A stretch of 50,782 bases of DNA from a virus. This document shows positions 8,919-46,997 of this stretch, one piece after another (the stretch's first letter is position 1; every line of letters starts with the position of its first letter). A model generated the notes under the pieces. That model was not told the DNA's origin. It saw nothing but the letters and a program-made list of their open reading frames with translations, and did no database searches. The stretch is from the IMG/VR virus record IMGVR_UViG_3300048589_000933, positions 1-50,782 of that record; one strand, 5' to 3'. The translations under genes were made by a program, and so were the position numbers.

Positions 8919-9184
8919 GCGCGCGACGCCTGGCGCGTGGCGGTGTGGTGCCCAGCTTCGGCGCCGTGCTTGGCGTCGCGCTTCAATTGCGCGATGGCGC
9001 GCTCGGCTTCGTTGAAGCGCAGCGATTCGAGCCAACTCGCGGCCGACTTGCCGACCCAGGCGTCGTCGGTTCCGAGCCGGCGGTACTTCCGGGTGACCTC
9101 GCCGCGGTCGTAGCCGGCGGCGGCGAGCAGGGCCTTGATCTCGATGCGCTGCTGGGCGGTGGCAGACGCCTTGACCGAGCTCAT
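8915..9184 (-). CDS. small hypothetical phage protein
   Basis: 89 residues, basic and helical, with KYRRLGTDDAWVGKSAASWLE in the centre. It is coupled by ATGA overlaps. No family is recognised. Confidence 0.6.
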   Translation of the reverse strand: MSSVKASATAQQRIEIKALLAAAGYDRGEVTRKYRRLGTDDAWVGKSAASWLESLRFNEAERAIAQLKRDAKHGAEAGHHTATRQASRA

Positions 9185-9375
9185 GCGGCGGCCTGCTGGA
9201 TGGCGATCAGGCGGCGCTGAAAGCGGCTGTTCTCCGCGCGCAGGTCGGCGGCCTCGCGCTCAAGCTCGCGCACCTCGAGGGCCGCGTTGCGGTACGTCAT
9301 GGCCGCCAGATCGTTGTCTGAGCCGGCCGCCTCCTGGGCGAGGTTGTCGAGGAGTTGGGTTGCGGTGGTTGCCAT
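9181..9375 (-). CDS. small coiled-coil protein, first gene of the leftward operon
   Basis: 64 residues from ATG at 9375, preceded by GGAG. The second half (LEVRELEREAADLRAENSRF) is a clear short coiled coil. A longer frame starting at 9444 would begin inside the promoter and operators, so the shorter start is preferred. The function is unknown. Confidence 0.65.
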   Translation of the reverse strand: MATTATQLLDNLAQEAAGSDNDLAAMTYRNAALEVRELEREAADLRAENSRFQRRLIAIQQAAA

Positions 9376-9415
9376 CACTAGCTCCGAAGAGCGCCCCGGC
9401 GGGGCGGATGGCGAA

Positions 9416-9457
9416 ACTATAAACGCGCTTACATCGCAGTGCAAGCGTGCTTACATC
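9416..9457 (-). promoter_or_regulatory. leftward early promoter with overlapping operators
   Basis: On the minus strand, TTGCAC (9439-9444), a 17-bp spacer and TATAGT (9416-9421) make a near-consensus sigma70 promoter. Half-sites TGYAAGC lie at 9427-9433 (between the boxes), 9440-9446 (over -35) and 9449-9455. The same half-site recurs around the CI/Cro promoters, so CI should repress this promoter in the lysogen. Confidence 0.75.
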
Positions 9458-9474
9458 ATCCCGTGCGACTCACC

Positions 9475-10092
9475 CTAGTTGCAGTTCGTGTGCGCAAGCG
9501 CAATCACGTCTTCGGAGACTCGCAGGGAGCGTAATGCCTGCCATAGCTCGAGCAGCGTGGCTGTTGATTCGGCGTTGATTGATCCATCAGACATCACCCC
9601 GCACGTCATGTGCAAAGCCTCGAATCCGCCCATCCTGTTGCGGGCTCGAATCTCGATGCCTAGATGAATGTCGTCTCTTCGGCGGGCCCATGCCGAGGAG
9701 ACAACGTACGCGCTGCGCGGGTCAAGCAAAAGTGGCCGGTACGCGTCGAGGCACTTCTCGGCAGAATTGGCCGGAACGGGCTCTGGGATGGTGCAGAAGG
9801 GGGCATTGTTCTCAGCGTAGCGGCCTTCGCGCTCAGTCTCTTCCGCCACCGATTGCTGCGCCTCCTGTTCAGAGGTGCAGTGCTTGCGCCATATGCCATC
9901 GGGGCACTTGTAGTGGGTGCCACCAGGCGGCTTGTAGGACCAACTCTTGGGGTCTACTTCGTACCGCCTGTCGGTGTCTGAGCAAGACGCTAGTGGCACT
10001 CGGGCGCCATCACGGAAGCAACGAATCTCCGCGCCAACTAAAGATCCTGAAGCAATGAGCAGCGATAGGGTGAGGGCAGAAACATGCGACAT
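9475..10092 (-). CDS. secreted hypothetical protein (possible lysogenic conversion gene)
   Basis: 205 residues with a signal peptide (MSHVSALTLSLLIASGSLVGA, cut before Glu22). The mature part has at least nine Cys, in pairs that could form periplasmic disulfides. It is visibly less GC-rich than its neighbours. It sits alone between the repressor and the leftward operon with its own AGGAG, the usual place for genes expressed in the lysogen. It may alter the host envelope. No family is recognised. Confidence 0.72.
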   Translation of the reverse strand: MSHVSALTLSLLIASGSLVGAEIRCFRDGARVPLASCSDTDRRYEVDPKSWSYKPPGGTHYKCPDGIWRKHCTSEQEAQQSVAEETEREGRYAENNAPFCTIPEPVPANSAEKCLDAYRPLLLDPRSAYVVSSAWARRRDDIHLGIEIRARNRMGGFEALHMTCGVMSDGSINAESTATLLELWQALRSLRVSEDVIALAHTNCN

Positions 10093-19548: not shown

Positions 19549-19797
19549 ATGCCCACCGCCGCCGCCACGATGCTGCAATCCTACATGGACGCCGAAACGG
19601 CGCTCCTGAAAGGGCAGTCGATTCGATGGGGTGAGCGCATGCTCACGCGCGCCGATCTGGCCGTGGTGCAGGCAGGCCGCCGCGAGTGGGAGGGAAAGGT
19701 TGCTGCCGAGTCGGCAGCCGCGCAGGGCCGATCATCGCTGTTTGCAGTGGCGGACTTCAGCGGCCGCGGTGGTGACTGCGAGGGCTTCCGGTCGTGA
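19549..19797 (+). CDS. gpW-like head-tail joining protein
   Basis: 82 residues. LLKGQSIRWGERMLTRADLAVVQAGRREWE has the pattern of the gpW family (about 70 residues), which completes the portal vertex. It lies in the lambda position between terminase and portal and overlaps the portal start (GTGA). Confidence 0.75.
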   Translation: MPTAAATMLQSYMDAETALLKGQSIRWGERMLTRADLAVVQAGRREWEGKVAAESAAAQGRSSLFAVADFSGRGGDCEGFRS

Positions 19798-22700
19798 ACT
19801 GGGTGGCCCGCGCAATCGACCGCACCGTCGAGACCATCGCGCCCATGCACGGCTTGCGGCGCGCCCAGGCGCGCAACGCCCTCGCGTTGTCCAACAAAGC
19901 GTACGACGCTGCTGATCGCAACCGCTTCCGCGACTCCGTGCGCGACTTCGGCAGCGGCAACAACGCCGTGGTCGGCAGCGGCTTGTACGTGCGCAACATG
20001 GCGCGCCACCTGGACCGCAATCACGACATCGTCAGCGGCGGCCTGCACACCCTGGCGCAAAACATCATCGGCGCCACGGGCATCGGCGTCGAGCCGCAGC
20101 CGCGCAACCGCAACGGCGACGTGCTCGAGGATCTCGCCTTCCAGCTCAGCATGCTCTGGAGCGACTTCTGCAAGCGGCCCGAGGTTACCTGGCAGCACGA
20201 CAACGGCAGCATGGAGCGCCTGTTGTGCCGCACCTGGTTGCGCGATGGCGAAGGCCTCGCGCAGGAGTTGATTGGCCCTGTCCCGCTGCTCGATCACGGT
20301 ACGCGCGTGCCGTACAGCCTGGAGATGATCGAGCCGGACTTGCTGCCGTGGGATTTCACCGAGCCGGGCCGAGGCATCACGCAGGGGGTGCAGCGCAACG
20401 CCTGGGGGCGTCCCGTCGCCTACCACCTGTACAAGCAACACCCCGGCGAGATGCTGGCCCTGCTCGGTGAAACCAAGAGCGTGCCGGCCGAGCGGATGAT
20501 GCACATCAAGCTGGTCGACCGCATCGGCCAGGTGCGTGGTATCAGCCTGCTGGCGTCCGTGCTCACGCGCCTGGACGACCTGAAAGACTACGAAGAAAGC
20601 GAGCGCATCGCCGCGAAGATCGCCGCGTGCTTCGCCGCTTTCATCATCAAGGGCGACGCAACCCATCTGCCGGAAGGCGTGCCCGACAAGGATCGCACTG
20701 CGCGCCTTTCGCCGGGCATGGTGTTTGACACGCTGCGCCCTGGCGAGTCTGTCGGCACTGTCGACACCAATCGCCCCAACCCGAACCTTGAAGGCTGGCG
20801 CAATGGCCAGCTGCGTGCCGGTGCGTCGGGCTTCCGCATCAGCTTCAGTTCGTTCGCGAAGAACTACAACGGCACCTACAGCGCGCAACGGCAAGAGCTG
20901 GTCGAGCAGTACGGCGCCTATGGCGTGCTCAGCCAGGAGTTCATCGGCGCGATCGCGCGCCGTAAGTACGAGCGCTTTGCCGCTGTCGCCCTGGCCACAC
21001 CCGGCCTGCTGCGCATCCCGTCCGACTTCGCGGCCATGAGCATTGGCGACGCGATGTACGTCGCGCCGCAGATGCCGTGGATCAACCCGATGCACGAAGC
21101 CGAGGCCATGGCGCTGCTCGAAGAGCACACCTACATGTCCGGCCCCGAGATCATCCGCCGCCGCGGCGCAAACCCGCGCGACGTGCTCGATCAGCAATCG
21201 GCCTGGATCGAGCGCAAGCGCACCTGGGGCATTCCCAGTGCCACGACCGGGCCAGCCAAGCCACCGGAGAACCCCATGCAAAACACCCCCGGCGCGGCAG
21301 CGCCCGCCGCTGCGCGTCATCGCACCAGCCACCTTGCTGCCGAGGCGTCAACCTCGGGCGCAACTGGCCAGCGCTCGGTGCTGCGCGCCACCGCGCTCGC
21401 CTCTGGCGTCGAGCTGCTGATCTACGGGCCCATTGGCCTGAGCTTCTGGGATGACGGCATCACCGTCGAGTCCATCGCTGCGCAGCTGCGTGCCGCGCCG
21501 GCCGGTGATGTACGCGTGCGCATCAACAGCGACGGCGGCTTTGTCAGCGAGGGCATCGCCATCCACAACGTGCTGCGCGAGTGCGGTCGGCGCGTCGTTG
21601 TCGATATCGAAGGCGTGGCCGCCAGCATCAGCAGCCTGATCGCGATGGCGGGCGATGAGACCCGCATCTACTCCAACGCGTCGATGATGCTGCACACGCC
21701 AAAGGCCGGCCAGTTCGGCTCGCCGGAGGACATGGAAGACGCCGCGCAGTACCTGCGCGTGCAGCGCGAGGCCATGGCGCAGAGCTACGCCCGCAAGACC
21801 GGCCGGCCCGCCGCCGAATTTGTCGCTCTGATGGCTGACGGCCGCGACCACTGGTACACCGCCGGCGAATCCATCACCGAGAAGCTGGCCGACACCCTCA
21901 TCGACGGCACGCCCGCGCAGCTCGAAGCCGACGCTGCGGCCGCTGCCCTTGTCGGCTACATCAACGCGATCAGCAAGGCGCCGGATGCCCCGCGCCTCCA
22001 GCTGCGTTCGCACATCAACTCGGCCGTTTCCGTGGCCGCTTTCGCCTCGCTTTCCGAGGCATACCAACGCTCCGTCCTGGAGCACATAGAGGACCCAGCC
22101 ATGCGTAAGCTTTTGGTTGAAGCAATGGCGGCTGTCGCAGGCGCCCCGCCGAACACCACTCCCGCAGCAGCGCCCGCTGTTGCCACCGCTCCAGCACCTG
22201 CCGTTGCACCAACGCCTGCGCCCGCACCGGCAGCCGTCGCTGTGGCGCCCCAGCCAGCCGCCGTGGCTGCCGATGCGATGGCCCTGGCCACCGCCGCCAT
22301 CGCCCAGCGCAACACCACCATCCGCGGCATCTTTGCCAGCTTCCGCGAAATGACCGGCGTCGCGACGCTCGAGGCCGACGTGCTGGCCGATCCCAGCATC
22401 ACCATCGAGCAGGCGCAGGCGCGCTTGCTGGGCCGCGTTGGCCAGGGTTCGCCGGTGCAGGGCACCGCCGGCCACGTCGAGGCAGGCACTGACGAGCGTG
22501 ACCGTCTGCGCGCAGCCGCATCCAATCTGCTGCTGGCCCGCCACAACATCATCCAGGGCCCCGAGGCCGAAGCCGCGCGCCAGGGCAACCCATTCGGCAG
22601 CATGACGCTGACGGCGATGGCGGAATCGTTCCTGCGCCACCAGCACGTCGACACGCGAGAGATGAACCGCGAGCAGATCGCGGTTCGCGCCCTGGCGCAG

Positions 22701-23591
22701 CAGACCGCCAGCGACTTCGTGGTGGCCCTCGAGAACACGATGCACCGCTCGGTGCAGGCCGGCTACCGGCTCATCCCGTTCACCTGGTCGCGCTTCTGCT
22801 CCGTCGGCATGCTCACCGACTACCGCCCGCACAACCGCTACTCGCTGTCGAGCTTCAGCGATCTGAAGGACGTCAACGAATCCGGCGAGTACGAGGACGG
22901 CTCGCTGGGCGACGCCGAGAAGCAAACCATTCAGGGCAAGCGCAAGGGGCGCATCCTGCAGATCACTCCGGAAGTCGTCGTGAATGACGACCTCGGCTTG
23001 ATCCTGCGTGCAGCTGGCGCCCTCGGCCAGGCCGCGGGTCGCACGATCGAGAAAGACGTGCACGCCCTGTTCGCCTTGAACAGCGGCTTCGGCCCGACGA
23101 TGTCGGACGGCCTCGCGCTGTTCCACGCCAACCACGCGAACCTGGCTGCCACCGCCGGCGCGCCGACCATCGCGATCATCGATGCAATGCGTCAGCAGAT
23201 GGCCAGCCAGATGGACCCGGCCGGTAACGACTACCTGGACATCACCCCTGCGCTGTGGGTGGGCCCAATGGCTCTCGGCAGCACGGCGCGCGAACTGAAC
23301 GCGCAGGAATACAACGACGAAAGCAACAAGAACCAGCGCAAGCCCAATGTTGTGCGTGGTCTCTTCCGCGACGTTGTCGACTCACGCCGGATGGCCGCGC
23401 AGGTCTGGTACACGTTCGCCGATCCGAATGTCGAGCCGGTGTTCGAGGTTGCCTTCCTCGATGGCGTGCAGACGCCGACGCTCGATCAGCAGACCAACTT
23501 CCGCACCGACGGCGTCGCCTGGAAGGTCTCGCATCGCTACGGCGTTGGCGGGGTCGCCTGGCGTGGCGCCGTGCGTAACGCCGGCGGCTGA
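19794..23591 (+). CDS. portal - ClpP-like prohead protease - major capsid polyprotein
   Basis: A single 1265-codon frame. Residues 1-490 are a lambda-family portal (RDFGSGNNAVVGSGLYVRN, EMIEPDLLPW, GISLLASVLTRLDDL). Residues about 495-720 are a ClpP-type protease: INSDGGFVSEG, GVAASISSLIAMAGD with S611, and MLHTPKAG with H634. From about 770 comes an Ala/Pro-rich scaffold-like segment and a Mu gpT-type capsid domain (about 910-1265). Protease-capsid fusions are a known annotation class. A fusion that includes the portal is unusual. Two in-frame ATGs with good Shine-Dalgarno sequences (21276 and 22101) may let the ribosome also make protease-capsid and capsid alone, which would solve the stoichiometry problem of 12 portals against hundreds of capsid subunits. 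The capsid half shows no disruption. Confidence 0.9.
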   Translation: MNWVARAIDRTVETIAPMHGLRRAQARNALALSNKAYDAADRNRFRDSVRDFGSGNNAVVGSGLYVRNMARHLDRNHDIVSGGLHTLAQNIIGATGIGVEPQPRNRNGDVLEDLAFQLSMLWSDFCKRPEVTWQHDNGSMERLLCRTWLRDGEGLAQELIGPVPLLDHGTRVPYSLEMIEPDLLPWDFTEPGRGITQGVQRNAWGRPVAYHLYKQHPGEMLALLGETKSVPAERMMHIKLVDRIGQVRGISLLASVLTRLDDLKDYEESERIAAKIAACFAAFIIKGDATHLPEGVPDKDRTARLSPGMVFDTLRPGESVGTVDTNRPNPNLEGWRNGQLRAGASGFRISFSSFAKNYNGTYSAQRQELVEQYGAYGVLSQEFIGAIARRKYERFAAVALATPGLLRIPSDFAAMSIGDAMYVAPQMPWINPMHEAEAMALLEEHTYMSGPEIIRRRGANPRDVLDQQSAWIERKRTWGIPSATTGPAKPPENPMQNTPGAAAPAAARHRTSHLAAEASTSGATGQRSVLRATALASGVELLIYGPIGLSFWDDGITVESIAAQLRAAPAGDVRVRINSDGGFVSEGIAIHNVLRECGRRVVVDIEGVAASISSLIAMAGDETRIYSNASMMLHTPKAGQFGSPEDMEDAAQYLRVQREAMAQSYARKTGRPAAEFVALMADGRDHWYTAGESITEKLADTLIDGTPAQLEADAAAAALVGYINAISKAPDAPRLQLRSHINSAVSVAAFASLSEAYQRSVLEHIEDPAMRKLLVEAMAAVAGAPPNTTPAAAPAVATAPAPAVAPTPAPAPAAVAVAPQPAAVAADAMALATAAIAQRNTTIRGIFASFREMTGVATLEADVLADPSITIEQAQARLLGRVGQGSPVQGTAGHVEAGTDERDRLRAAASNLLLARHNIIQGPEAEAARQGNPFGSMTLTAMAESFLRHQHVDTREMNREQIAVRALAQQTASDFVVALENTMHRSVQAGYRLIPFTWSRFCSVGMLTDYRPHNRYSLSSFSDLKDVNESGEYEDGSLGDAEKQTIQGKRKGRILQITPEVVVNDDLGLILRAAGALGQAAGRTIEKDVHALFALNSGFGPTMSDGLALFHANHANLAATAGAPTIAIIDAMRQQMASQMDPAGNDYLDITPALWVGPMALGSTARELNAQEYNDESNKNQRKPNVVRGLFRDVVDSRRMAAQVWYTFADPNVEPVFEVAFLDGVQTPTLDQQTNFRTDGVAWKVSHRYGVGGVAWRGAVRNAGG
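21266..21278 (+). promoter_or_regulatory. internal ribosome binding site for protease-capsid product
   Basis: GGAGA (21266-21270), five bases, then in-frame ATG (21276), codon 495, at the junction between the portal and the protease. The product would begin MQNTPGAAAP. This is the expected place for a separate gene start if the portal once had its own stop. Confidence 0.6.
22088..22103 (+). promoter_or_regulatory. internal ribosome binding site for capsid product
   Basis: AGAGGA (22088-22093), seven bases, then in-frame ATG (22101), codon 770. The product would begin MRKLLVEAMAAVAG, before the scaffold-like linker and the capsid domain. It resembles the nested C/Nu3 arrangement of lambda. 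Confidence 0.65.
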
Positions 23592-23688: not shown

Positions 23689-24072
23689 ATGGCAAAGAAC
23701 TATGTGTGTCCCGGCGACACCATCCCGTGGGTCAACACCACCGGCGTAGCGGTCGCTTCCGGCCAGCTCGTGCGAGTCGGCCACATGCTGGGCGTGGCGC
23801 TGGTCGCCATTGCCATCGGCGCCACCGGCAGCGTCGCAATCGAGGGCGTGTTCCGCGGCGTGCCGAAGGTCTCCGGCGCAGTCTTCGTTCAGGGCGAGAA
23901 GCTCGTCTTCGACTCGAGCGCCGGCTCCGGCGTGGGCGCATTCGATGACGCCGCAGCCACGCCAGCCACTGGCGACATCACCGGCGGCGCCGTGGCCTGG
24001 GCGGCGGGCACCGATGGCCAGACCACCTGCACGGTGAAGCTCACCCCGGGCAACGCAACGCTCACCGCGTAA
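23689..24072 (+). CDS. DUF2190-family capsid decoration protein
   Basis: 127 residues, all-beta and Gly/Val-rich, with CPGDTIPWVNTTGVAVASGQ and IEGVFRGVPK. DUF2190 proteins are structural, commonly encoded next to the major capsid protein and thought to cement the shell. The gene has a clear AGAGGA site and is followed by a terminator, as expected for a highly expressed virion protein. Confidence 0.85.
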   Translation: MAKNYVCPGDTIPWVNTTGVAVASGQLVRVGHMLGVALVAIAIGATGSVAIEGVFRGVPKVSGAVFVQGEKLVFDSSAGSGVGAFDDAAATPATGDITGGAVAWAAGTDGQTTCTVKLTPGNATLTA

Positions 24073-24104
24073 CCACTCAGGGCGCCGGGCAGCCGCCCGG
24101 CATT

Positions 24105-24138
24105 GCGGTGCCGACCACTCCCCGGCACCGCCTTTTTT
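24105..24138 (+). terminator. rho-independent terminator after the head genes
   Basis: The stem GCGGTGCCG/CGGCACCGC (24105-24113 and 24123-24131) with a nine-base loop is followed directly by C and six T. It would reduce transcription from the head genes into the lysis cassette. Confidence 0.85.
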
Positions 24139-24160
24139 CATCGTCATCCGCGAGGGCCGC

Positions 24161-24367
24161 ATGCGCAGGATTCCGCCAGTCACGTCAGGGCAAACAGAAA
24201 CCGGCGAAGGCCCGGTGCCGCACCGGCTGATGCGGGTTGCCGGGCACACGTTTCGCGCGCCCGTGGTGCTGCAGGACAGTCACTCGCGCGGCAGCCTGCC
24301 GCGGCCGGTGCGCGTTGACGATCGCCTGGTGTACGCGCTGCCCGGCGGCGGGCGGGTGGTGGGCTGA
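24161..24367 (+). CDS. small hypothetical protein before the lysis cassette
   Basis: 68 residues, basic, with no membrane segment and no recognised family. Its stop overlaps the start of the PAS gene (TGATG). Because it follows a terminator, it may have its own promoter, but none stands out. Confidence 0.5.
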   Translation: MRRIPPVTSGQTETGEGPVPHRLMRVAGHTFRAPVVLQDSHSRGSLPRPVRVDDRLVYALPGGGRVVG

Positions 24368-25005
24368 TGGACGCGCAGTCGGCTTACTTCATCGTCTCCA
24401 TCGTCATCACCGTGTTCGGCGCTGTGTACGCGTTTGCGCGTTGGGCGTGGCCGCGCATCAAAGCGGTGACGGAAAAGCTCCGGCCGTACTTTGCGGGCCT
24501 TGCCTCGCTCGACGTGATCTGCGCAGATCTCGCCGCCATCAAGCACGAGCTGCTGCCCAACGGCGGCGGCAGCTTTCGCGATGAGTTTCGTGAGCAGGCC
24601 CGTGAGAACCGGATGCAGGGCGCGATCTTGCGCGCCTCGCTGGACTTCTCCGACGCCGCGATGTTTCAGGCCGACGCCACCGGCGAGTTCCGCTGGGTGA
24701 GCGCTACGCTGCAGGGCTGGGTGGGGCGTTCCTTCTCCCATCTGCTGCGCCGCGGCTGGCTCACCAGCGTGGCCGACGAAGACCGCGAGCGCGTGCGCGC
24801 CGGCTGGGAAGCCGCGCTGCGCGATCAGCGCGAGTACCGCGGTCAGTACACGTTGATCAGCGACACCGGCGAGCGCATCCCCGTTGAGTGCGTCGCGCGC
24901 CCGGTGTGTGACCCGGCCACCGGCGTGCTGCATCGCTACCTGGGCCACATTCGCCGGCGCTCCTCGGCAATCACCAGCGCCTGGCTGCCGGATGACGGCG
25001 CATGA
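24367..25005 (+). CDS. membrane-anchored PAS-domain protein
   Basis: 212 residues. One membrane segment lies at about 5-28 (SAYFIVSIVITVFGAVYAFA), followed by a helical linker and a PAS/PAC-like domain from about 95 (SDAAMFQADATGEFRWVSAT, WLTSVADEDRERVR, then GEYR-type strands and RYLGHIRRR). PAS domains sense ligands or redox state. Finding one on a membrane stub four bases from an endolysin gene suggests a role in timing or triggering lysis. A sensor of host physiology with no link to lysis remains possible. No holin was otherwise identified in the cassette. Confidence 0.75.
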   Translation: MDAQSAYFIVSIVITVFGAVYAFARWAWPRIKAVTEKLRPYFAGLASLDVICADLAAIKHELLPNGGGSFRDEFREQARENRMQGAILRASLDFSDAAMFQADATGEFRWVSATLQGWVGRSFSHLLRRGWLTSVADEDRERVRAGWEAALRDQREYRGQYTLISDTGERIPVECVARPVCDPATGVLHRYLGHIRRRSSAITSAWLPDDGA

Positions 25006-25583
25006 CCACGCCTGCACCTGTCGAAACCACCCCGCCGGCCGGCGCCGGCCGCCTGGGTTTTGTTGGCGCCAGCGCCGCGGCGGTGATGCTGCTGTGGGCT
25101 GCGCTGATCGGCTCCGAGCAGCGCGAGTACGTGCCGTACCTCGATGTGTTCGGGGTGTTGACCGTGTGCGCCGGCATCACCGGCCCGGAAGTGATCGCCG
25201 GCCGCACCTACTCCGACACGGAGTGCGATGCGCTCGAGCACGGCTACATCACACGCATGCTCGCGCGCATGGGTGAGTGCGTGAAGCGCAGCGATCTTGC
25301 GCTGCACCAGGTCATCGCCTGGGGCCACTTCGCCTACAACGTGGGCAATGCCGGCTTCTGCAAATCCACCGCCGCAAGCTACTTGAACAGCAAGCGCGAC
25401 AAGGAAGCCTGCGATCAGATCATGCGTTGGACGTTCGGCACCTCGCGCCGCACTGGCAACCGAATCGACTGCGCTGTGCGTGCCAATCGCTGCTACGGCC
25501 TGTACGACCGGCGCCTGCGCGAGCGCGCCATGTGCAACGGAGACATGGACGCGTTCAAGCCCGGCTGGAGCGCAGCCGCATGA
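25002..25583 (+). CDS. SAR endolysin, GH24 lysozyme
   Basis: 193 residues that cut peptidoglycan. Residues 19-37 are a weakly hydrophobic Gly/Ala-rich N-terminal segment (LGFVGASAAAVMLLWAALI) that should act as a signal-anchor-release sequence. The catalytic triad E39, D48 and T54 has exact T4-lysozyme spacing (E-8-D-5-T). Several Cys could lock the enzyme until release. It overlaps both the PAS gene and the next gene by four bases. Confidence 0.9.
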   Translation: MTTPAPVETTPPAGAGRLGFVGASAAAVMLLWAALIGSEQREYVPYLDVFGVLTVCAGITGPEVIAGRTYSDTECDALEHGYITRMLARMGECVKRSDLALHQVIAWGHFAYNVGNAGFCKSTAASYLNSKRDKEACDQIMRWTFGTSRRTGNRIDCAVRANRCYGLYDRRLRERAMCNGDMDAFKPGWSAAA

Positions 25584-25795
25584 TCAGCCTGCTGCTCGCC
25601 GCAACCATGGTGGTGGTGATCGATCCACCAGCGCCGAAGTCCTGCGAACTTCCTGGCCTTCGCATCGTGCTGGCGGATGGCAACGTGATCTACGCCTTGT
25701 CAGCTGACTACATGCTGCCGCCTGCGCTTGGCATCGTGATCGTGCCGTTGCCCGACCAGGTGTTCTGCCACGGCTTCGAGCGGCCGGCGCCATGA
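25580..25795 (+). CDS. small secreted or membrane-associated lysis-cassette protein
   Basis: 71 residues with a short hydrophobic start (MISLLLAATMVVVIDPPAPK) and two Cys in the rest (22 and 63). It is ATGA-coupled on both sides. It could be a chaperone or regulator of the SAR endolysin or a degenerate pinholin. Nothing is proven. Confidence 0.55.
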   Translation: MISLLLAATMVVVIDPPAPKSCELPGLRIVLADGNVIYALSADYMLPPALGIVIVPLPDQVFCHGFERPAP

Positions 25796-26208
25796 CCGTC
25801 GTTCAGGCACTGCAGACCTATCTGGTCAAGATCCTGGCCGGCGTCATCGTGCTGCTACTGCTGGCGTGCGTTGGCCTTGGCATCGCGCTCTATGTCACCG
25901 ACCAGCGCGCGGATATTGCCGAGAAGGCCGTCACCGAGTCGGTGAAGAATCACAAGGCCTGCACCGACGCCAACACCGCATGGTCGGGCACCGTCGACTT
26001 CATCCAGGGCGCCCTGCAGAACTGTGTGGCCGATCGCGCCGAAGTCGCCAAGACCGGCCGTGCCGCCGTCGGCCGCGTGCGCAACCAGGTGGCCACGCTA
26101 GAGGCCGAGCTGGCCACCTGGCGCAGCCAGTCCACCGCGGCCGAGTTGCTGCCGCAGTGCCGCGGCGTGCTCGAGCTTGAGCTGTGCCCCGAGCTGGCGG
26201 ACTACTGA
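25792..26208 (+). CDS. inner-membrane spanin-like protein (Rz-like)
   Basis: 138 residues: one N-terminal membrane segment (about 12-36, VKILAGVIVLLLLACVGLG) and a periplasmic domain with a long coiled coil (ATLEAELATWRSQST). This is the topology of i-spanins, which fuse the inner and outer membranes at the end of lysis. The lipoprotein that follows is the expected partner. Confidence 0.78.
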   Translation: MTVVQALQTYLVKILAGVIVLLLLACVGLGIALYVTDQRADIAEKAVTESVKNHKACTDANTAWSGTVDFIQGALQNCVADRAEVAKTGRAAVGRVRNQVATLEAELATWRSQSTAAELLPQCRGVLELELCPELADY

Positions 26209-26209
26209 C

Positions 26210-26536
26210 ATGACCAAGATGACCCCCCGCCGCCGACCGCCCACCCGGTCAGGGAGAGCCCTGGCCGGTGTGGCCGTGTGCGTGCTGGTGCTGCCGCTCA
26301 CGGGGTGCTTCGGTCGCGGCGTACGCGACTGTCCCACCACGCCCGAGATCGTCGAGGTCCCGCGCCGCGTCTACGTGCCGGTGCCGGATGAACTGACGCG
26401 CCCGGCCGATATCGCCGAGCCGCGCAACCGTCGCGTGGGCGAGCTGCGCGACGTGGCCAAGCAGCGCAAGACCGCGCTCGAGGCCGTCAACGCGCGGCTG
26501 GCCGAGATCCGCGCATTGGCACCACCGGAGGAATGA
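26210..26536 (+). CDS. outer-membrane spanin-like lipoprotein (Rz1-like)
   Basis: 108 residues, starting MTKMTPRRRP. A basic start and hydrophobic stretch end in the lipobox LTGC (Cys33). The mature part has a PTTPEIVEVPRRVYVP segment and a coiled-coil end. It follows the Rz-like gene in the same direction with one base between them rather than nested inside it. The longer frame from 26177 overlaps the previous gene and lacks a signal at its start. Confidence 0.75.
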   Translation: MTKMTPRRRPPTRSGRALAGVAVCVLVLPLTGCFGRGVRDCPTTPEIVEVPRRVYVPVPDELTRPADIAEPRNRRVGELRDVAKQRKTALEAVNARLAEIRALAPPEE

Positions 26537-26868
26537 CCGTGAACCCGATCAAGTCGCAGTTGCTGCTGTCCGAAGTTCGCGAGAACACTGAGCGCAAGTT
26601 CGGTGCCGCGAACCACGTCTATCCGCAGTGGGTGGAAACGCTCGAGGGCTTCAGGCCGGCGCAGTTCATTCGCAGCGAAGTGGACGCGGCGTTCGAGCGG
26701 GCCCGCAAGAACCCGGAAGACATGCCGCCGCGCTACATCGCGCCGGCGTCCGCCCCGGTTCTGCAGGTTGCCGCTTCGACGAATCGCGTGGCTGCCATCG
26801 CGGTGCTGTCGGCGCTGGTGGCCAGCATCGTGACGGCCGTGCTCATCCTCGAGCTGGTCGCACAGTAA
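26533..26868 (+). CDS. tail-anchored membrane hypothetical protein
   Basis: 111 residues: a soluble helical N-terminal part and one C-terminal membrane segment (about 86-108, AAIAVLSALVASIVTAVLIL). It is coupled upstream and downstream. A late holin-like or antiholin-like role is conceivable because of the location. No family is recognised. Confidence 0.6.
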   Translation: MTVNPIKSQLLLSEVRENTERKFGAANHVYPQWVETLEGFRPAQFIRSEVDAAFERARKNPEDMPPRYIAPASAPVLQVAASTNRVAAIAVLSALVASIVTAVLILELVAQ

Positions 26869-27203
26869 TGCACAGCAGCTTCGCCACCGAGTTCGACGAC
26901 CTGGCGCATGAGGCGTTTGCCGACGCCGGCATGGGCGCCGGCACCGGTAGCTATCTCGCGCCGGATGCGGATCCGGCTGACGTTGTCACCGGCGTGCGGA
27001 TCTACATTGATCAGGAATCTCAGACCGCTGGCGAGTACGGCCCCGTGTTCGCGAAGCGCGTCATCATCACGCTGATCAACGCCGACGTGCCGAACCCGTC
27101 TGTCGGTGCCCTGGTAACGCTCGGGTCTGACCGCTGGCTGCTGCGTCGGCTCGAAGCGTCCGATAGCAACAGCACGTCGTGGGTTGTTGAGGTGGCGCCG
27201 TGA
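26868..27203 (+). CDS. head-tail attachment protein (lambda gpFII-like)
   Basis: 111 residues, close to gpFII in length (117). It has the motif pattern AEFDDLAHEAF... then VRIYIDQE, VIITLINADVPNPSVGA and DRWLLRRL of the phage head-tail joining family. It should form the ring that caps the head and receives the tail. Confidence 0.78.
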   Translation: MHSSFATEFDDLAHEAFADAGMGAGTGSYLAPDADPADVVTGVRIYIDQESQTAGEYGPVFAKRVIITLINADVPNPSVGALVTLGSDRWLLRRLEASDSNSTSWVVEVAP

Positions 27204-45575: not shown

Positions 45576-46997
45576 ATGCGCCACCTCGACAACCTCATCC
45601 TCAACACCGACAGCTACAAGGCCAGCCACTGGCTGCAGTACCCGCCGAACACCGACGCGACCTTCTTCTACGTCGAATCGCGTGGCGGCCAATACGAACG
45701 CACACTGTTCTTCGGTTTGCAGGCGATCATCAAGCAGAGCCTGCTGACGCCGATCACCCATGCCGACGTCGACGAAGCGCGCGACTTCTTCGCTGCCCAC
45801 GGCGAGCCGTTCAACGAGGCGGGCTGGCGGCGCATCGTCGAAGTCCACGGCGGACGCATGCCGGTGCGCATCCGCGCCGTGCCGGAGGGCAGCGTGGTGC
45901 CGACGCACCAGGTGCTGGTCACCATCGAGTCGACCGATCCCGAGGCGTTCTGGCTGCCGTCCTATCTGGAGACCCTGCTATTGCGGCTGTGGTATCCGGT
46001 GACCGTTGCCACGGTCAGCTGGCATGCCAAACGCACCATCCGCAAGTTCCTGCTCAAGACCTCGGACGACCCCGAGGGCCAGCTGCCCTTCAAGCTGCAC
46101 GACTTCGGCGCCCGCGGCGTGTCCAGCAACGAATCGGCCGGCCTTGGTGGTGCCGCGCATCTGGTCAATTTCCTCGGTACCGACACTGTCGCCGGCGTGC
46201 TCACCGCGCGTGCCTACTACGGTGCCGAGATGGCCGGCTTCTCGATCCCGGCCGCCGAGCACAGCACTATCACCAGCTGGGGGCGCGACAACGAGGTCGA
46301 GGCCTATCGCAACATGCTGCGCCAGTTCGCCAAGCCCGGCGCGCTGCTTGCCGTGGTGTCCGACAGCTACGACATTTATCACGCGATCGACCAGCACTGG
46401 GGCGTGACCCTGCGCGACGAAGTCATCGCCTCGGGTGCGACGGTCGTCATCCGCCCGGACTCCGGCGAGCCGGTCGAAGTGGTCCACCGCTGTCTTGAGC
46501 GGCTCGAGGCGCAGTTCGGCAGCAGCACCAACAGCAAGGGCTTTCGCGTGCTCAACCACGTACGGGTGATCCAGGGTGACGGCGTCAACCCGGCCAGCAT
46601 CCGGCAGATTCTGGAACGCATCACCGCCGCCGGCTTTTCCGCCGACAACCTCGCCTTCGGCATGGGTGGGGCGCTGCTGCAGCGGCTCGATCGCGATACC
46701 CAGAAGTTCGCGCTGAAGTGCTCGGCGGCGCGGATTGAGGGGCAATGGCGCGACGTCTACAAGGATCCGATCACCGACACCGGCAAGACCTCAAAGCGCG
46801 GGCGTCTGACACTCGTGCGCTCAGAAGAGTTCGACACCTGGCGCAGCGTGCCGGTGCCAGCCAACCTCGATGCGGTTGAACAGATGTCGGCGCCGGCCGG
46901 CTACCGGCACGCGATGGAAACCGTCTACGAGGATGGTCGACTGCTGCGCGAGTGGACGCTGGAAGAGGTTCGCGCCGCCAGCCGTGGAGCGCTCTGA
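45576..46997 (+). CDS. nadV: nicotinamide phosphoribosyltransferase
   Basis: 473 residues. It makes NMN from nicotinamide and PRPP, and nadM then makes NAD. The family pattern KLHDFGARGVSSNESAGLGG and the IRPDSGEPVEV phosphoribosyl-binding segment are present, and the length is normal. AAGGAG precedes the ATG. It lies 57 bp after nadM, probably in one operon. Such pairs occur in bacteria and also in some phages, but this one lies outside the prophage. Confidence 0.93.
   Translation: MRHLDNLILNTDSYKASHWLQYPPNTDATFFYVESRGGQYERTLFFGLQAIIKQSLLTPITHADVDEARDFFAAHGEPFNEAGWRRIVEVHGGRMPVRIRAVPEGSVVPTHQVLVTIESTDPEAFWLPSYLETLLLRLWYPVTVATVSWHAKRTIRKFLLKTSDDPEGQLPFKLHDFGARGVSSNESAGLGGAAHLVNFLGTDTVAGVLTARAYYGAEMAGFSIPAAEHSTITSWGRDNEVEAYRNMLRQFAKPGALLAVVSDSYDIYHAIDQHWGVTLRDEVIASGATVVIRPDSGEPVEVVHRCLERLEAQFGSSTNSKGFRVLNHVRVIQGDGVNPASIRQILERITAAGFSADNLAFGMGGALLQRLDRDTQKFALKCSAARIEGQWRDVYKDPITDTGKTSKRGRLTLVRSEEFDTWRSVPVPANLDAVEQMSAPAGYRHAMETVYEDGRLLREWTLEEVRAASRGAL

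Follow-up and report, generated by a model that had tools for sequence, protein, structure and literature searches.

Holin timing is usually viewed as an internal clock that is driven by the build-up of protein in the membrane. May some phages instead time the bursting of their hosts with a built-in sensor? The locus considered here raises that question, as a gene for a membrane protein with a PAS domain overlaps the start of an endolysin gene, and the initial annotation had proposed that it could link lysis timing to the redox or energy state of the host, perhaps as a 'sensory pinholin'. A sensor domain fused to a protein in the holin slot would, if the reading is true, give a phage a direct route for coupling lysis to host state, and the PAS protein makes such coupling testable by experiments on a single gene. 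What is new is a one-helix lysis-cassette protein bearing a sensor-type domain; the literature searched yielded no paper that connects a PAS domain with phage lysis proteins.

The locus and its PAS protein

The DNA analysed (the window) is a whole record of 50,782 bases. A gene for a serine recombinase lies at the left end and genes that seem host-like lie at the right, and for these reasons the record is considered prophage-like. Near the right end there is also a nicotinamide phosphoribosyltransferase-like gene (45576-46997, +; NAPRTase 5e-65, NAMPT_N 1e-27), either phage cargo or host flank. The lysis cassette (23689-26868 region; Table 1) sits within the head module, flanked by a head-decoration gene (23689-24072) and a head-tail attachment gene (26865-27203). 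A single reading frame of 1265 aa (19794-23591, +) holds portal, protease and capsid together, with matches to lambda-type portal (PF05136, 2.6e-81), Clp-type protease (PF00574, 1.8e-22) and a major capsid domain (PF25209, 1.6e-43).

Table 1. Genes and protein features of the lysis region, in window coordinates
Feature	Coordinates	Strand	Evidence or remark
Small ORF, 68 aa, soluble	24161..24367	+	No family match; ends in a TGA that runs into the start codon of the PAS gene (TGATG)
PAS membrane protein, 212 aa, holin slot	24367..25005	+	Pfam PAS_4 8.2e-9; AF2 pLDDT 90
Transmembrane helix, residues 6-24, predicted N-out/C-in	24382..24438	+	Hydropathy 2.18; flank charges
PNGGGSFRD motif, residues 64-72, helix-helix joint	24556..24582	+	PNGG.S.RD invariant among PAS members
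PAS domain, residues 95-196	24649..24954	+	Pfam, model, PDB matches
Endolysin of 193 aa, a SAR-like phage lysozyme with intact E39-x8-D48-x5-T54	25002..25583	+	PF00959 7e-19, phrog_7 6e-32; Mu gp22 alignment
71-aa ORF, hydrophobic N-terminus, ATGA overlap at either side	25580..25795	+	Gene overlaps
Rz-type inner-membrane spanin	25792..26208	+	phrog_5151 5e-4; TM at 14-32
Rz1-type outer-membrane lipoprotein spanin	26210..26536	+	LysC PF23793 9e-7; phrog_11951 5e-13
Tail-anchored membrane protein of 111 aa, rival candidate for the holin	26533..26868	+	C-terminal TM KD 2.75; no family match

Pfam, hydropathy, structural modelling and the gene overlap all agree with the initial description of a single membrane segment joined to a PAS domain and encoded by a gene running into the endolysin start. 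Third-position GC of the PAS frame is 0.85, matching that of neighbouring genes and so marking it as coding sequence. Its product has one hydrophobic segment (residues ~6-24, KD 2.18), flanked by charges of 0+/1- on the N side and 5+/2- on the C side, and PAS_4, PAS_3 (3e-8) and PAS (1e-4) all exceed the Pfam cut-offs. The alignment-based AlphaFold model (pLDDT 90; 50 in a single-sequence run) has a helix at 3-62, an NGG turn, a second helix at 68-93 and a complete PAS fold at 98-197, which on comparison with the PDB matches solved PAS structures. The TGA of the gene overlaps the endolysin ATG (ATGA, 25002-25005). With the helix, the Pfam PAS matches, this overlap, the lysozyme match, the spanins and the third-position GC taken together, the observation is real.

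The endolysin is a phage lysozyme by its family matches. Its N-terminal segment is Gly/Ala-rich and weakly hydrophobic, and its catalytic E-x8-D-x5-T spacing is, by alignment, as in Mu gp22, features that suggest a SAR-like enzyme. One basic residue, an Arg, precedes the SAR segment, which is fewer than in its holin-paired relatives.

The holin slot

Relatives of the window lysozyme indicate what would ordinarily be found upstream of it. Viral contigs provided 38 loci with such a relative. In 37 of them, as in Xanthomonas phage FoX3, the lysozyme gene is overlapped at its start by a small membrane gene; the 38 loci are not independent lineages, and the remaining one, L003, is cut near the gene. 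Four representatives of these slot genes, when scanned against profiles, match the phrog_920 holin and, weakly, Phage_holin_2_2. That holin is absent from the window record and from L179, L187 and L182, all four of which carry a PAS gene. This gene runs into the start of the lysozyme gene in both the window and L187, and in L179 it is directly upstream of the lysozyme gene with a possible 47-aa one-helix ORF between. By comparison of gene order, then, the PAS gene occupies the position of the class-II-type (phrog_920-type) holin of the lysozyme's relatives. It is position that the two share, each overlapping the start of a homologous lysozyme gene, whereas the phrog_920 holin is unrelated in sequence, has 80-84 residues with the hydrophobic helix near the middle, and lacks a cytoplasmic sensor domain.

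A family with a helix, a motif and, in some members, a PAS domain

A single-sequence search of phages, IMG/VR and GTDB with the window protein found no relative, and matches in Gordonia and Synechococcus (E 0.6-6) were dropped, their frames being unannotated or opposite. Relatives were instead reached by a pattern search with PNGGGSxRD, the motif lying between the membrane helix and the PAS domain, and in the end ~24 different proteins with PAS and over 100 shorter proteins were collected. The core of the family is a membrane helix predicted to be N-out/C-in, a long helix, an invariant PNGGxSxRD turn and a cytoplasmic coil. All 24 PAS members keep both PNGG.S.RD and the single N-terminal helix, and in all 24 the N-out/C-in orientation is predicted from the positive-inside rule, as the C-terminal flank of the helix is the more positive (L185 is the least clear case).

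Short members, mostly ~64-110 aa and without PAS, make up the majority of the family and correspond to phrog_9869, for which no function is annotated. Alignment of the short-member profile with the PAS alignment (hhalign 99.3%, E 1e-20) makes them one family; against the window protein alone the phrog_9869 model gives only 0.078. The short proteins have in common with the PAS members the helix, the coil and, as the joint, PNGGxSx[RK]D, and also the lysis-cassette location. Motif and membrane helix, not PAS, form what is conserved throughout. On these sequence grounds the PAS protein is assigned to a largely uncharacterised phage family, TM-PNGGxSxRD-coil.

Divergence within it is deep. The closest sampled relative of the window protein, L179, is merely 32% identical, and the tree of the 24 PAS proteins is poorly resolved with lysis-adjacent members intermixed with the others, from which it follows that linkage to lysis is neither the trait of a single clade nor universal. 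Two uncultured-phage proteins in UniProt, A0A6J5NY05 and A0A6J5QVN9, match the PAS-protein model over most of its length; they are annotated 'PAS domain' only, with no lysis annotation in their records.

Linkage to endolysin genes across phages

How general is the association with lysis genes? Whole records of the PAS members were scanned with six predefined endolysin families, superseding a biased count that had been seeded by neighbouring endolysins; phrog_465 was included after its appearance in L185, so the scan is not fully blind. The PAS gene is at most ~1.2 kb from the endolysin gene in 9 of the 12 records with a standard endolysin family match, against 1.2 expected were it placed randomly (Poisson-binomial P ~3e-8, and 1.7e-5 on contigs >30 kb only), and the endolysins concerned differ in class (GH24, M15, CHAP). 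Adjacency is seen further in L167 (amidase) and L168 (Rz), both from bacterial MAG contigs, and in L183. The short members neighbour amidase, CHAP, GH25-type and NlpC/P60-type enzymes, many of these loci being closely related to one another, and in Thermobifida phage P1312 the short-member gene overlaps that of an amidase (ATGA).

There are also ~8 PAS lineages away from a recognised endolysin (L040/L177, L178 at 6 kb, L180, L181, L188, L189 at 30 kb, the L199 group at 12 kb and L201), and about a third to half of the PAS lineages do not adjoin one, a figure blurred by fragments and incomplete families. Comparative genomics nevertheless supports well a link of the PAS protein to lysis. A separate feature of L185 is that its M15-type endolysin match (8962-9542; record G012:31580-32092) crosses one in-frame TAG, for which readthrough, recoding or simple truncation are possible explanations.

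Likeness to known lysis proteins

Known pinholins have two membrane helices, the first of SAR type. The pinholin part of the initial proposal fails on the single helix of the PAS protein, which is an ordinary N-out/C-in one as against the two of S21-like pinholins. Type III holins, exemplified by T4 T, have one helix oriented N-in/C-out and a globular periplasmic domain; the topology predicted from charges across the PAS members opposes assignment to this class.

Two one-helix proteins offer closer parallels. Mu gp25, a releasin (DUF2730, PF10805), frees the SAR endolysin of a phage that has no holin (PMC9239132). It has in common with the PAS protein one N-terminal N-out/C-in helix and a cytoplasmic C-terminal part (PMC9239132), and where Mu has a SAR endolysin, a two-component spanin and no holin, the window has a SAR-like endolysin, a two-component spanin and no recognised holin; the releasin gene is within a few genes of that for the endolysin. 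Both the gp25 family and the PNGG family also occur with non-SAR endolysins. On the other hand, gp25 has neither PNGG motif nor PAS domain, and its gene is downstream of the endolysin gene rather than at -1. The dependence in Mu rests on lysines 6 and 7, in place of which the lysozyme of the window has one Arg only; with just that one basic residue before the SAR segment, the Mu charge model is not directly transferable, and a charge-based releasin logic does not obviously seem needed for this enzyme. Membership of DUF2730 (PF10805) was considered and set aside, with no Pfam match and hhalign values of 0.4-6% against gp25.

The second parallel is mycobacteriophage LysF1b (DUF2746, PF10874), whose deletion alters lysis timing and for which holin activity, as well as lysis triggered by energy poison, has been reported (PMC13056207). 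It too has one N-terminal N-out/C-in helix and belongs to a lysis cassette, and its cytoplasmic domain is charged and helical; it differs in lacking PNGG motif and PAS domain and in host and endolysin type. DUF2746 (PF10874) membership is likewise rejected (hhalign 0.5%; no DUF2746 match in PNGG proteins). Since homology to either is undetectable, the PAS protein can be said to work like, not to be, a releasin or a LysF1b. By this analogy, the best reading is of a holin-slot lysis protein that would act as LysF1b or the Mu releasin does.

How the PAS protein may act

We consider it somewhat probable that the PAS protein is a membrane lysis effector or trigger of the prophage, standing in for a holin. 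Late in infection it would build up in the inner membrane, assembled into an oligomer through helix, coil and PAS, until a threshold was reached or the PAS domain underwent a change. Once triggered, it would either depolarise the membrane, as LysF1b may, or directly help the tethered, inactive SAR lysozyme to exit the bilayer, as a releasin would. Freed lysozyme would then cut the peptidoglycan, with Rz/Rz1 completing lysis. PAS itself would be a regulatory or dimerisation input added onto a core that the short members have without it.

What, then, is the PAS domain for? It probably gates or dimerises the lysis protein. In the earlier suggestion that lysis timing is tied to host redox or energy state, the tie to lysis is favoured by the holin slot and the diversity of neighbouring endolysins; redox or energy sensing is not, for no His, Cys or flavin-type residue is conserved in the alignment of the 24 PAS members (the best columns have Cys in 10/24 and His in 8/24, neither of them present in the window protein). 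That lack is also a point for the view that PAS is a structural dimerisation module without sensing, in an otherwise ordinary one-helix lysis protein, as is the existence of many family members that have only the motif and membrane helix as core. Such a view shares its core with the effector reading and is compatible with it, and we hold it to be quite possible, if short of probable. Against it, residues typical of PAS_3/PAS_4 (G106, W131, DR 139-140, W147 and G193) have been retained over deep divergence, the model is of a complete PAS fold, and PAS domains without a cofactor can still bind small ligands. A stronger version of the effector reading is a lysis clock with its own cytoplasmic sensor, used across unrelated phages: a one-helix holin or releasin, gated by PAS, would respond to a metabolite or to the physiological state of the host and release SAR lysozyme accordingly. 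This version is tentative and seems to us somewhat unlikely.

Alternatively, the PAS protein could be an accessory regulator, delaying or licensing lysis as an antiholin or co-holin, with the pore coming from another small membrane protein, either that at 26533-26868 or an unrecognised ORF. Whether a holin is present elsewhere is pertinent here. The earlier statement that none was otherwise recognised is borne out to the extent that the window has neither a multi-spanning ORF of this kind nor phrog_920: among plausible late-region ORFs none has two membrane segments save the lysozyme and one out-of-frame ORF, with 26533-26868 left as a formal candidate. This tail-anchored protein is in the same overlapping gene string and has a weak homologue in L187. 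Like a small ORF of L187 (59 aa), it could be a holin that has escaped recognition, but the 26533-26868 protein has no match among holin families, and its matches to phage proteins, all hypothetical, are confined to the soluble part. PAS phages with non-SAR endolysins usually do have a separate multi-helix holin-like gene (phrog_3427 in L041; also L185, L167, L184, L186 and L183), in most of them a 2-3 helix protein beside the PAS gene, and in such phages the holin role need not fall to the PAS protein. A multi-helix gene likewise shares the cassette with short relatives in phages of actinobacteria (L220, L228, L229). Yet no multi-helix holin is recognised in the three SAR-lysozyme PAS phages (window, L179, L187). 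A contrast of 3 with ~6 cases is suggestive, not proof, and we judge an accessory role unlikely.

That the PAS gene is not for lysis at all, being a membrane signalling or host-takeover gene merely located in a late operon, is improbable: several PAS members do lie amid genes for packaging or structure and have no lysis gene near them (L040/L177, L181, L188, L201) and PAS proteins and PAS histidine kinases are known in other phages, but the excess of endolysin proximity, the replacement of the holin in its slot and the repeated pairing of short members with differing endolysin classes all argue otherwise.

Short PNGG proteins and an associated gene family

The effector reading extends beyond PAS. 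Short TM-PNGGSS-coil proteins of the phrog_9869 type (L048, L098 and ~100 other loci) are very common in virus contigs, often beside endolysins, and judging from sequence and location are probably unannotated lysis proteins. A widespread and practically unannotated group is thereby flagged. Its member in Thermobifida phage P1312 (L235 4698-5141) currently carries the label 'sensory protein kinase CreC', which is probably mistaken.

A further family, phrog_32486, which has no functional annotation, is present in 77 fetched loci (L098 and 76 others), where it often adjoins the short PNGG gene and is the dominant neighbour in freshwater contigs. It has no match in Pfam; by eye, an SxHxxGxAxD / HxH peptidase-like pattern can be made out, and it is possible that phrog_32486 is an unrecognised endolysin family.
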